Origin: Actinomycetota bacterium | GTDB taxonomy: Bacteria; Actinomycetota; Thermoleophilia; Miltoncostaeales; Miltoncostaeaceae | Assembly: GCA_016870155.1 (NCBI GenBank) | Contig: VGCE01000003.1 | Span: 118,055-182,054 of the forward strand | Direction of reading: 5' to 3' | Length of the DNA: 64,000 bases | Shown here: one piece after another, positions 30,082 through 34,553 of the stretch | Layout of the letters: every line of letters begins with the position of its first letter | Position numbering within the stretch: position 1 is the first letter of the stretch | Position numbers and translations under genes: made by a program | The notes under the pieces: model-generated | Seen by the model: only the letters and a program-made list of their open reading frames with translations | Told to the model about the DNA's origin: nothing | The model's database searches: none

Positions 30082-32031
30082 CTGAGCCGCTTCTTCAAGA
30101 GTGCCGCGTTTCCCATCCTGATCGTGATCCTGCTGGCCTTCGTTGCGCAACGGCTGGTCACGTCGTCGTCGCAGCCGGCCGAGCAGCCCACCTTCACCGC
30201 GTTCCAGAAGGACCTGACCGAGGGCAAGGTCTCCAAGGTCACGATGCAGACGAAGAGCCAGGAGCTGGAGGTCGCGCTCAAGGACGGCAAGACCTACATC
30301 ACTGGCTTCCCGGACAACTACGGCGCGCAGGTCACCGACAGCATCGACAAGGCGGACATCCCGCTCGTGGTCGAGGGCCGCGGTGGTTCGGCCTGGTGGG
30401 GCTTCCTCATCACGCTCGCCCCGTTCCTGCTGTTCTTCGTCTTCTGGATCTTCCTGATGAACCAGATGCAGGGCGGCGGATCCAAGGTGATGAGCTTCGG
30501 CAAGAGCCGAGCCAAGCGGATGGCGGTGGACCAGCCGAAGATCACCTTCCGCGACGTGGCGGGCGCCGATGAGGCGGTGGAGGAGCTCGAGGAGATCAAG
30601 GAATTCCTCGAGAATCCCAAGCGCTTCCAGGCGCTGGGCGCGCGAATCCCAAAGGGCGTGCTGCTCTACGGGCCGCCCGGCACAGGCAAGACGCTGCTGG
30701 CCCGCGCCGTCGCGGGCGAGGCCGGCGTGCCGTTCTTCTCCATCTCGGGCTCGGACTTCGTCGAGATGTTCGTGGGCGTCGGCGCCAGCCGCGTGCGCGA
30801 CCTCTTCGAGCAGGCCAAGCAGAACTCGCCCTGCATCATCTTCATGGACGAGATCGACGCCGTGGGCCGCCACCGCGGCGCCGGCATGGGCGGCGGCCAC
30901 GACGAGCGCGAGCAGACGCTCAACCAGCTGCTCGTCGAGATGGACGGATTCGAGGCCAAGGACAACATCATCCTCATCGCGGCCACCAACCGGCCGGACA
31001 TCCTCGACCCCGCCCTGCTGCGCCCGGGCCGCTTCGACCGACAGATCATGGTCGACCGCCCCGACCGCGCGGGTCGCGCGGAGATCCTGCGCGTGCACAC
31101 GCGTGGCAAGCCGATCGACAAGGAGATCGACCTCGACACCCTCGCGGGCCAGACGCCGGGCTTCACCGGCGCCGACCTCGCGAACCTGGTGAACGAGTCG
31201 GCCCTGCTCGCCGCCCGCAAGGGCAAGAAGGTCATCGATGCCCTGGAGCTGGAAGAGGGCATCCTGCGCGTGATCGCCGGCCCCGAGAAGAAGACCCGCC
31301 TGCTCTCCGACAAGGAGCGCGTGGTCACGGCCTACCACGAGATGGGCCACGCCATCGTGGGCCACTTCCTCCCGAACGCCGACCCGGTGCACAAGATCTC
31401 CATCGTCAGCCGCGGCCAGGCGCTGGGTTACACCATCTCCATGCCCGCCGAGGACAAGTTCCTCACCACCCGCGCGCAGCTGGAGGACACCATGGCCATG
31501 ACGCTCGGCGGCCGCGCCGCCGAGGAGCTGGTGTTCTCGGAGATCACCACCGGCGCCGCCAACGACCTCGAGAAGGTCACGGCCACGGCCAAGCAGATGA
31601 CCATGCGCTTCGGCATGAGCGAGAAGCTCGGCCCGCGCGTGCTGGGCCACAACCATGGCGCGCCGTTCCTCGGCCGCGACATGCACAGCGAGCCCGACTA
31701 CTCGGACGACATCGCCCGTCAGATCGACGCGGAGATCCGCCGCATCATCGAGGACGCCTACCAGCGCGCCAAGGACATCCTCTCCGAGCACCGCCACGAC
31801 CTCGAGAACATCACGCAGGTCCTGCTGCGCCGCGAGACCATCGAGCGCGAGGAGTTCCTTCGCCTGCTCGAGGGCGAGTCCGAGGCGGATGTCTTCCGCG
31901 TGAAGGACGAGCGCGCCCGCCAGAAGGCCGCCGAGGCCGAGCGGGCTGCCGACGAGGCCGAGGCCGAGAAGCGTCGTCAGCCGCTGCCTCCTCCCGCTCC
32001 CGGCACCAAGCCCGGTACCGCAGGGGCTTAG
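30082..32031 (+). CDS. ftsH: ATP-dependent membrane zinc protease FtsH (CTG start)
   Basis: A 649-residue AAA+ metalloprotease degrading membrane and short-lived cytoplasmic proteins as a hexamer. The first transmembrane helix is at 8-25 and the second at about 106-127; Walker A GPPGTGKT (197-204), Walker B FMDEID and the zinc site HEMGH (419-423, usually HEAGH) follow. No in-frame ATG, GTG or TTG exists before the GTG at 30124, which would cut away half of the first helix. CTG at 30082, preceded by GGGAG, restores the helix, so CTG initiation is inferred. The C-terminal 50 residues are charged and low-complexity. Confidence 0.93.
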
Positions 32032-32120
32032 GCACGCAGCAACGGGTCCCGGGCCGCATACCGCTGGGTCCCTTGGCTCGCTTGCCGCTGGCCCCCTGAT
32101 ACCGCTTCCCGGACTTCGTC

Positions 32121-32232
32121 GGCCCCCGCACAACGGGGTCGCGGCCACTCGCCGAAGCGGGATCGGCATGAGCGGGGGCCGCAAATGCATCATCCCCGGC
32201 TGCGATCGCCGCGACCCCGTTGTGCGGGGGCC
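32121..32232. repeat. long-stem structured repeat, copy 1 (before folP)
   Basis: A perfect 25-bp stem (32121-32145 with 32208-32232) encloses 62 bases. The inner region, read on the reverse strand, contains the strands GATCGCAGCCGGGG and CCCGCTTCGGCGAGTG, both identical to those of the second copy at 34043-34165; between them lies an imperfect hairpin. Apart from the innermost five base pairs, the outer stem has no sequence in common with that of copy 2. The element lies in the 221-base gap between ftsH and folP and ends eight bases before the folP -10 hexamer. No protein is encoded here. Confidence 0.8.
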
Positions 32233-32240
32233 TGCGCGGC

Positions 32241-32246
32241 TAGCCT
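32241..32246 (+). promoter_or_regulatory. leaderless-type -10 (TAGCCT) for folP
   Basis: TAGCCT ends six bases before the folP GTG at 32253, with no ribosome binding site. It starts nine bases after the right arm of the structured repeat, so the folate transcript does not include that repeat, although the -35 region would fall in the arm. Confidence 0.5.
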
Positions 32247-32252
32247 GCGGGC

Positions 32253-33077
32253 GTGGCTGCGTCCCTTGCCTGGCTCACCCGTCCGTGCGTGATGGGGATC
32301 CTCAACGTCACGCCCGACTCCTTCAGCGACGGGGGCGCGTATGCCGATCCCGGCCGGGCCGTGGCGGCCGCGCAGGGCATGGCCGCCGAGGGGGCCGCGA
32401 TCGTCGACGTCGGCGGCGAGAGCACGCGACCGGGTGCCGCGCCGCTGCCCTCCGACTTAGAGACCGCACGGGTTGCGCCGGTGCTGGAGGCGCTGTCCCG
32501 CGATGCGGCGGGGCTCCCCGCTTCGATCGACACGCGTAGCGCCGCCGTGGCGCAGGTGGCGCTCGACGCCGGGGCCGTACTGGTGAACGACGTCTCTGCC
32601 GGCGCCGATCCCGGCATGTTCCCGCTCGTTGCTGATCGGGGCGCGGGCATCTGCCTCATGCACATGCAGGGCGAGCCCGCCACCATGCAGGACGACCCCC
32701 GGTACGGCGACGTGGTGTCCGAGGTGGCGGCCTTCCTCGAGGCCCGCATGCGCGCGGCCGTCGAGATGGGCGTCGCGGAGCACGCCATCATCCTCGACCC
32801 GGGCATCGGCTTCGGCAAGACGGCGGAGCACAACGTGGCGCTGATGCGCGGACTGGGCACCATCGTGGCGCTGGGGCGCCCCGTGCTGGTGGGTGTCTCC
32901 CGCAAGGGGATCATCGGTGACATCACCGGGCGCGAGGTCGGGGACCGCCTGGCGGGGTCGATCGGCGCGGCCCTTGCGGCGGTGGAGGCGGGCGCGGCGG
33001 TGCTGAGGGTGCATGATGTGCGCGAGACCGTGGACGCGCTGAAGGCGTTCACCGAGATGCGTGGGAGCGGTGCATGA
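32253..33077 (+). CDS. folP: dihydropteroate synthase
   Basis: A 274-residue TIM-barrel enzyme joining p-aminobenzoate to dihydropterin diphosphate; it is the sulfonamide target. The signature MGILNVTPDSFSDGG (14-28) and VDVGGESTRPGA (51-62) are complete, as are LVNDVSAG, the HMQG segment and DPGIGFGKT. The GTG start is leaderless-type. The stop overlaps folB (ATGA). With folB and folK it forms a compact folate operon in the order known from Bacillus. Confidence 0.96.
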   Translation: MAASLAWLTRPCVMGILNVTPDSFSDGGAYADPGRAVAAAQGMAAEGAAIVDVGGESTRPGAAPLPSDLETARVAPVLEALSRDAAGLPASIDTRSAAVAQVALDAGAVLVNDVSAGADPGMFPLVADRGAGICLMHMQGEPATMQDDPRYGDVVSEVAAFLEARMRAAVEMGVAEHAIILDPGIGFGKTAEHNVALMRGLGTIVALGRPVLVGVSRKGIIGDITGREVGDRLAGSIGAALAAVEAGAAVLRVHDVRETVDALKAFTEMRGSGA

Positions 33078-33445
33078 GCGACGTGGTGGTGAGGATCCGG
33101 GGGCTCGAGGTGTACGGCCGGCACGGCGTGCACGACGCCGAGCGCGTGCTGGGCCAGCGCTTCGTGGTGGATGTCGACATGGTGCTCGCGCACGACCGGT
33201 CGACCACCAGCGACGAACTGGCCGACACCGTGGACTACGCCACGATCGCCGACGACGTCGCCGACATCGTTGGCGGCGAGCCCGTCGCGCTGCTGGAGCA
33301 CCTGTGCCGGGTGATCGCCGACCGCGTGCTGGCCGACCCGGTGGTGGCTGCGGTGACTGTCACCGTCGCCAAGCCGCAGGTGGCGATCCGCCACGTGCTC
33401 GACGACGTATCGGTGGCGCTGCACGTGGCGCGCGACGCGCCGTGA
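33074..33445 (+). CDS. folB: dihydroneopterin aldolase
   Basis: A 123-residue tunnelling-fold enzyme cleaving 7,8-dihydroneopterin to 6-hydroxymethyl-dihydropterin. Visible family features are GLEVYGRHGVHDAERVLGQ near the N-terminus, DTVDYATI and the pterin-anchoring glutamate in ALLEHLC. ATG overlaps the folP stop and the 3' end overlaps folK by four bases. Confidence 0.94.
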   Translation: MSDVVVRIRGLEVYGRHGVHDAERVLGQRFVVDVDMVLAHDRSTTSDELADTVDYATIADDVADIVGGEPVALLEHLCRVIADRVLADPVVAAVTVTVAKPQVAIRHVLDDVSVALHVARDAP

Positions 33446-33930
33446 GCGTGTTCTGGCTCGGCCTGGGGTCGAACCTGGGCGACCGGGCCGACGCCCTGCG
33501 CTGGGCAATCGACCGCCTGACCGAAGAGGGCGCACAGGTGCAGGCCGTGAGCAGCCTGTACGCCACTGCCCCCCAGGGCGTCGAGGACCAGCCGGAATTC
33601 CTCAATGCGGCCTGCCGGGTTGCCACCGACCTCGACCCGCCCGGAATGCTGGCCTTGGCGAAGCGCCTGGAGGCCAGCGCGGGCCGCGTGGACGGCCCGC
33701 GCTGGGGCCCCCGCCCGCTCGACATCGACATCCTCGCCTGGGACGGCGGCGCGTGGCGGGCCCCCGACCTCACCGTGCCCCATGAGCGCCTGCACGAGCG
33801 CCGATTCGCACTCCAGCCCCTGGTGGAGATCGACCCCGACATGGCTCTTCCATCAGGCGAGCGAATCAGCGCTCTGCTCGAGGCCATCCCCGCAGGCGAG
33901 CAGCGAGTGACGCGAGCGGCCTTTCCGTAG
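33442..33930 (+). CDS. folK: 6-hydroxymethyl-dihydropterin pyrophosphokinase
   Basis: A 162-residue enzyme transferring diphosphate from ATP to 6-hydroxymethyl-dihydropterin, the step before FolP. It has LGLGSNLGDR (6-15), the SSLYATAPQG and QPEFLNAAC segments, and the signature RWGPRPLDIDILAWDG with the magnesium-binding aspartates. The GTG start overlaps the folB stop (GTGA). Confidence 0.95.
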   Translation: MSVFWLGLGSNLGDRADALRWAIDRLTEEGAQVQAVSSLYATAPQGVEDQPEFLNAACRVATDLDPPGMLALAKRLEASAGRVDGPRWGPRPLDIDILAWDGGAWRAPDLTVPHERLHERRFALQPLVEIDPDMALPSGERISALLEAIPAGEQRVTRAAFP

Positions 33931-34042
33931 TCGGAGCGCAGCGCAAGGACGCGGGGCCGGCCCCATGGCCCAGGGGTGGTCCCGCCCAAGGGCTGTCCCG
34001 CAGCCGGGTGCCGAGGATGGCTCCAATGGCCGAGGAGGGAAG

Positions 34043-34165
34043 GCGCAGGGCCCCGGACGAAGGCGTTGCGGCGATCGCAGCCGGGGATAGTGCATTTGCG
34101 GCCCTCGCAAATGCACTATCCCGCTTCGGCGAGTGGCCGCAACGCCTTCGTCCGGGGCCCTGCGC
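34043..34165. repeat. long-stem structured repeat, copy 2 (after folK)
   Basis: A perfect 30-bp stem (34043-34072 with 34136-34165) encloses 63 bases. Inside, strand 34073-34085 (GATCGCAGCCGGG) and strand 34121-34135 (CCGCTTCGGCGAGTG) are the same as in copy 1, and a perfect 15-bp hairpin (34086-34100 with 34106-34120, loop GCCCT) lies between them. The orientation is opposite to copy 1. It occupies most of the 284-base gap between folK and the DUF2469 gene; the 112 bases before it (33931-34042) show GC-rich sequence with no gene or clear signal. Confidence 0.8.
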
Positions 34166-34199
34166 GTAGCGCGAAGCCCACCACGCACGAGCACGGGTC

Positions 34200-34205
34200 T
34201 ATGCT
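34200..34205 (+). promoter_or_regulatory. leaderless-type -10 (TATGCT) for the DUF2469 gene
   Basis: TATGCT ends nine bases before the ATG at 34215; no ribosome binding site is visible. Confidence 0.5.
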
Positions 34206-34214
34206 TGCCGCCCT

Positions 34215-34553
34215 ATGTCGCAGATCGACGAACTCGACGAATACGACGCTGAACTGGAGCTCCGGCTGAAGCGCGAGTACGCGGATGTGTTCCCGCTCTT
34301 CCGCTACTGCGTGCTGACGCAGGAGGCCACGTATCTCTGCAACAAGCTCGAGCGCCGGTACGAGCCGCAGGCCGCGTACCCGTTCTTCCACGTAGTGATG
34401 GAGGATGTCTGGGTGTGGGACAAGAACCGGCCCACGCGCATCATCCCGCGCGTGGAGATCCACACCACCCAGGACATCACGGTGGAGGTGCTGCGCACGG
34501 ACGAGGCCGACGGGCCGTTCGACGCCGAGCTCGAGCTGCCGGCCGAGGGCTGA
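34215..34553 (+). CDS. DUF2469-family protein
   Basis: A 112-residue soluble protein of a family typical of actinobacteria and of unknown function. Characteristic features are the N-terminal DEYDAELELRLKREYADVFPLF, a central region with ATYLCN, and the closing VWVWDKNRPTR. It starts 50 bases after the structured repeat and ends four bases before coaX, so the two may share a transcript. Its presence supports an actinobacterial origin. Confidence 0.8.
   Translation: MSQIDELDEYDAELELRLKREYADVFPLFRYCVLTQEATYLCNKLERRYEPQAAYPFFHVVMEDVWVWDKNRPTRIIPRVEIHTTQDITVEVLRTDEADGPFDAELELPAEG

Follow-up and report, generated by a model that had tools for sequence, protein, structure and literature searches.

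Related repeats and mutational processes

MITEs carry conserved terminal repeats that match a transposase. Like MITEs and the small mobile sequences of enterobacteria (PMC2229807), the repeat described here is small and dispersed and contains inverted repeats; however, its termini are locus-specific, differing even between near-identical copies in a single genome (G019), and no common terminus was seen. REP/BIME sequences and their RAYTs (PMC3733652, PMC2817692) offer a second comparison, as they are also intergenic, palindromic, multicopy and lineage specific. REPs are 20 to 40 bp long and have conserved stems, often with G-T pairs, and a GTAG/CGTC tag, whereas the present repeat has a conserved core between variable arms of 25 to 30 bp or more, no tag or shared foot that could be seen, and no association with Y1 transposases. 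The repetitive or double hairpin elements of fungal and sponge mitochondria (PMC2800124) are likewise dispersed, intergenic, limited to close relatives and suspected of mobility with no known enzyme, but in the sponge elements the stems are conserved and the loops vary, the opposite of what is found here, and the present elements lie in bacterial chromosomes. The coding palindromes of Nematomorpha mitochondria (PMC6649704) are likewise long, perfect inverted repeats that extend into genes, although they are mitochondrial and the abstract mentions no shared dispersed core.

A different parallel is provided by quasipalindrome template-switch mutagenesis (PMC8604942, PMC8794818, PMC7202029), which shares with the present family identical arms, a flipped spacer, apparently one-step multibase mirrored changes and stem extension. 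Template switching between inverted repeats is described as leaving homogenized arms and an inverted spacer (PMC8604942), and it has been put forward as a means by which hairpin stems arise and persist (PMC8794818). Those reports concern scattered single events in yeast, rRNA and reporters, whereas here we infer that the process acted genus-wide on a dispersed, long-armed family. We consider it probable that the element examined below belongs to a genus-restricted repeat with a near-constant core, whose arms have been homogenized by repeated templated copying, likely template switching during replication. The repeat family itself appears to be undescribed, the underlying process is already known, and the scale and modularity of the family are unusual.

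Structure of the element

The window (the whole 64,000-nucleotide stretch analyzed, from contig VGCE01000003.1) contains only two inverted repeats of comparable strength, at 34043-34165 and 32121-32232. The features of both and of their neighboring genes are as follows.

30124..32031, plus strand: ftsH, upstream of the second copy
32121..32232, minus strand: second copy of the element, between ftsH and folP, core oppositely oriented
32253..33077, plus strand: folP, downstream of the second copy
33445..33930, plus strand: folK, upstream neighbor of the window element, an open reading frame with the FolK-type sequence RWGPRPLDIDIL
34043..34072, plus strand: left arm, 30 bp, perfect complement of 34136-34165
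34073..34083, plus strand: internal loop, conserved left strand GATCGCAGCCG, invariant within the A subfamily
34084..34100, plus strand: inner stem, left half, perfected here, with GATAGTGC mirrored by GCACTATC
34101..34105, plus strand: apical loop GCCCT (family form GCGG-CCC-CCGC)
34106..34122, plus strand: inner stem, right half
34123..34135, plus strand: internal loop, conserved right strand GCTTCGGCGAGTG
34136..34165, plus strand: right arm, 30 bp
34215..34553, plus strand: gene for a small protein that we take to be DUF2469-type, downstream neighbor of the window element

The first-pass annotation described the arms as perfect, and this is confirmed: 34043-34072 and 34136-34165 are 30 nt each and 100% complementary. 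They enclose a 63-nt spacer, the core, which contains a perfect inner stem of 17 bp (34084-34100/34106-34122); at the same place most other copies retain an asymmetric loop of 3 versus 2 nt. Within the internal loop, GCCG of the left strand GATCGCAGCCG could pair with CGGC of the opposite strand. The RNA fold of 34033-34175 has a minimum free energy of -116.7 kcal/mol, versus -66 ± 3.8 for shuffles (z = -13.5), and the DNA fold gives -74.1 (z = -16.3), so that the strength of the hairpin is far above the level of chance. The second copy has perfect 25-bp arms unlike in sequence to those of the window element, and its core is the same. The annotation had also singled out the strands of the internal loop as the conserved part, a view upheld by comparison of the copies.

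Distribution of the repeat

The hairpin belongs to a family of palindromic repeats with at least 80 copies in one genus of uncultured freshwater bacteria. BLAST searches of 60 relatives returned approximately 85 copies; the sole matches outside the genus were five, each about 20 bases long with E above 0.003. Using a covariance model derived from 15 elements, it was found that 17 of 20 genomes of one Miltoncostaeales-type genus (Thermoleophilia) carried the repeat, compared with none of 22 genomes from 11 other genera of the order. The genome from which the window derives (1.81 Mb in 16 contigs) holds four close copies and some diverged ones. A pattern scan across 85,000 species gave matches confined to metagenome-assembled genomes (MAGs) that resemble the same lineage; the names Thermoleophilia or Miltoncostaeales are attached to some of them, and evidently wrong bin names to others. 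Public bins labeled Bifidobacterium breve or Acidobacteria that carry repeats (e.g., L175 and L150) appear to be mislabeled members of the genus. No match to the core was identified in phage, plasmid and viral collections, and at the gathering score Rfam returned only tRNAs, its weak miRNA matches being a mere reflection of a long hairpin. The copies fall into at least four core subfamilies (A to D), all of which have a TTGCGGCCCCCGCAA-type hairpin at the apex together with an internal loop that is conserved. The repeat is real, genus restricted, modular and palindromic.

FolK orthologues were used to locate the corresponding site in other genomes, and orthologues of the DUF2469-type protein share 82 to 95% identity across the genus. 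The folK/DUF2469 gap holds a hairpin of the family in eight species (G000, G005, G007, G011, G013, G014, G016 and G019), measures 7 to 62 nt without a family hairpin in ten others, and contains a hairpin of a different family, E, in G001. The window stem had been called private, and recent formation had been suggested for it. The first description does not hold: the arm is locus-specific, but the same gap has orthologous hairpins with alignable arms in seven further species. Recent formation is not supported, since eight species have the hairpin at this site. Of the species read at the rlmN/yciI site, ten have the element; the genome of the window has none there, its gap being 55 nt. The folE2/plsY site carries in five species a nested palindrome of E and A that spans about 254 nt between the two stop codons, and in six a gap of 0 to 11 nt. 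As sites are filled in some species and empty in others, the hairpins are dispensable yet conserved in place over several species. Convergent, codirectional and (in subfamily C) divergent gene pairs all occur as contexts.

Spread of copies between sites

Presence and absence that vary among species are also what would be expected if the repeat were a nonautonomous REP- or MITE-like mobile element, with a transposase recognizing the core as a single-strand hairpin and the arms being passengers or target sequence. Three composite copies in G019 lie at different sites, with an identical inner part and different outermost palindromes, and comparison of cores from different sites gives a slightly higher identity within genomes than between them (0.949 versus 0.937; permutation p = 0.001), which implies that copies exchange sequence or have spread recently. 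Conserved terminal sequences and target duplications are nevertheless absent, as are matches in the phage, plasmid and viral collections, and mobility of this kind would cover the spread of the repeat and not the coevolution of its arms. We regard a mobile element as possible but on the doubtful side; it is compatible with the templated copying that we favor for the arms.

A Y1/RAYT transposase had been put forward as the agent. PF01797 is present in 11 of the 20 genus genomes and was not found in the copy-rich G014, G019, G007 and G016, with the caveat that MAGs are incomplete. A Y1 transposase, whose presence does not track copy number, is not supported as the mover, and the single candidate tested lends no support to a recombinase origin. 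It had further been proposed that an uninterrupted single arm at an empty site would reveal that the second arm is made on insertion. The empty sites in ten species, mostly distant ones, contain neither a hairpin nor a recognizable arm, and so lend no support to such an origin of the second arm. In the sister pair G006 (empty) and G001 (E hairpin), 10 of 11 bases at the right end of the insertion (CCCCCGTGCGG) mirror the preexisting left flank (CCGCCCGGGGG), which only hints at an arm made from such a flank, in a different family, E, and with loss in G006 possible.

The same mirroring of flank bases, and the G019 composites that share their interior but not their outermost palindromes (one of which includes a mirrored stop codon), hint at propagation without a transposase. 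Under this speculative and rather unlikely scheme, a hairpin would be copied by long-range template switching, one flank would on landing be copied onto the other side as a new outer palindrome, and the conserved core would make the nascent strand fold and reprime. Loss of the SbcCD hairpin nuclease is a possible permissive background for long palindromes, and is offered as a lead. SbcD scored above the cut-off in none of the 20 genus genomes versus 13 of 17 other genomes of the family, with a diverged SbcD/Mre11-like phosphoesterase scoring below the cut-offs in the genus (L281:1580-2716 in the window's genome). Long hairpins occur at 20 and 17 per Mb versus 7.5 per Mb in an SbcD-bearing relative, a modest difference between small samples.

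Concerted evolution of the arms

The orthologous folK/DUF2469 hairpins of the eight species have diverged in their arms and retained self-complementarity. Twenty-six arm pairs were scored in 15 complete elements at three sites. In 20 of the 26 pairs both sides had changed, and no pair had a one-sided change; double-change cells numbered 106. Pairing over the whole structure was 98.7%; shuffles gave 81.0%, and sliding the partners brought it down to 47% or less. The arms were more alike inside an element (identity of 0.92 to 0.97) than between orthologues (0.73 to 0.91). Pairwise counts, which are not independent of one another, gave 265 transversions versus 207 transitions among arm co-changes, and 312 mirrored versus 35 unmirrored arm indels, the mirrored count depending on the alignment method. 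Arms diverge faster and the core more slowly than the flanking genes: identity was 0.88 to 0.95 for the core, 0.83 to 0.89 for the flanking genes and 0.65 to 0.88 for the arms.

Strong covariation of this kind, together with the very stable fold and the position of several sites between convergent genes, approximately 20 nt past both stop codons, could also mark a transcribed structured RNA or a terminator working in both directions, in which purifying selection and ordinary compensatory mutations preserve the stem. G-U pairs, however, occupy 4 of 390 arm cells, fewer than the 9 taken by other mismatches, and no pair shows one-sided variation. Across 74 unique elements GT and AC mismatches were about equal (31 versus 26; p = 0.60, from nonindependent counts), so neither strand shows the excess of G-U that selection on an RNA stem would be expected to produce, although a bidirectional terminator would also give G-U/A-C symmetry and the count is not decisive alone. 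A T tract is absent at both window copies, and no terminator-like site (a GC-rich hairpin followed by a T tract) was identified in 31900-34400. In addition, the orthologous gaps of many species (0 to 62 nt) have no such hairpin, subfamily C lies between divergent genes, and there is no Rfam match at the gathering score. A structured RNA or terminator is accordingly judged improbable. As read from the alignments, the concerted change of the arms is the footprint of templated arm-to-arm copying and not of RNA-level compensation; selection in favor of a long stem, as DNA or RNA, could play a part, all comparisons being between species, with no between-strain mutation caught. Perfect covariation of a long stem therefore need not imply RNA function. 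Near-absent G-U intermediates and one-sided changes distinguish DNA-level arm conversion from RNA-level compensation, a test usable where structured-RNA candidates rest on covariation alone.

Signatures of probable templated copying

Further changes within the elements are of the mirrored type. Three copies, namely the window element, L086 of G014 (near a contig end) and L102 of G004, have in place of the asymmetric inner loop of 3 versus 2 nt a sequence that mirrors the 5' strand exactly, each perfection requiring two substitutions and one insertion at once. At folK/DUF2469 the core is inverted in G007 and G016 relative to G011 and G014, with the arms alignable, and inversions were also found at rlmN/yciI (G019) and folE2/plsY (G007 and G012). 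Palindromes extend into coding sequence as well: rlmN ends in GCC TGA in five species, mirroring the end of yciI, and mostly in TAG in the others, and the 24-bp outer palindrome of L089, one of the three G019 composites, takes in the last codon and stop of the neighboring gene. Both parts of the published quasipalindrome signature, arm homogenization and spacer inversion between intact arms, are thus present. The suggestion in the first-pass annotation of ongoing arm-to-arm conversion or template switching is supported by the lack of one-sided changes among the 26 pairs, G-U pairs that do not outnumber mismatches, co-changes that are mostly transversions, the mirrored indels, the core inversions and the perfected inner loops.

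In the templated-copying explanation, a core of about 63 nt (internal loop and inner hairpin) would be held nearly constant, and the outer arms would be kept identical in inverted orientation through repeated copying of one from the other. The agent would most likely be template switching by a nascent strand at the quasipalindrome, either within the fork or across it, a process that would flip the core too. A mutation in one arm would be either erased or copied to the other, so that the arms would drift fast yet stay perfect, and each locus and species would thereby acquire its own stem. Template switching appears in this natural system to shape a whole dispersed repeat family over the lifetime of a genus. 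It does not account for the conservation of the core, which may reflect a protein or mobility requirement, or for the founding of new sites.

Variation in core orientation between species at three sites could also suggest an invertible switch, in which a site-specific recombinase flips the core via the arms. This is highly improbable, as the arms differ at every locus and therefore provide no common recombination site, no promoter-like site was found around the core (sigma-70 consensus only), and inversion would in any case be expected to arise between long inverted repeats. Assembly artifacts that mirror sequence at hairpins may explain some of the many MAG copies at contig ends, where assemblers can do so and where such palindromes were set aside (e.g., G006 L099/L100, with implausible mirror arms of 60/60, which were left out of the strict count), but this is barely credible for the family. 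For interior copies it is refuted by the independent assemblies in which orthologous sites occur; the window copy, like many others, lies well within its contig, between flanks that are unique and orthologous on either side.

Subfamilies and nested modules

Elements of subfamily C (L113, L088, L069, L065, L096 and L059) are located between divergently transcribed genes for an ABC-F ATPase and a thioredoxin-type protein. On one or both sides of these elements a CTCTAGG-type sequence occurs near the start codon, and such sequences may be promoter -10 elements of leaderless genes.

In most species the tip of the E module (GCCGAAAAAGCGCGAGAGGCGG / GCCGCACTGCTGTGGTATTCGGC; L112, L091, L090 and L089) is occupied by core A, and in G001 and G006 (loci L345-L351) it holds an unrelated core, H. 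E, A and H are nested, exchangeable modules with locus-specific outer arms. Another core, F (around TCGCGAATCGGAATCGC / GCGTCGTTTCGTC), has perfect outer arms of its own and was identified in G013 at folE2/plsY (L235) and ftsH/folP (L124), sites at which other species have A or E. In one cluster of sites (L044, L085 and L093), core A is flanked by another conserved internal-loop module, GCGGACAACTCGCGGATAGCCGGG / CCGGACCGCTGCGGTAGTCCGC, and a sequence related to this module is found in a palindrome without core A in the window's genome (L298:19627-19746). The arm sequence GGTGTCAGGCACRTAACC (L072 and L040) doubles as the 3' end of the coding sequence (VSGT-stop) in a neighboring tyrosine-recombinase-like gene.
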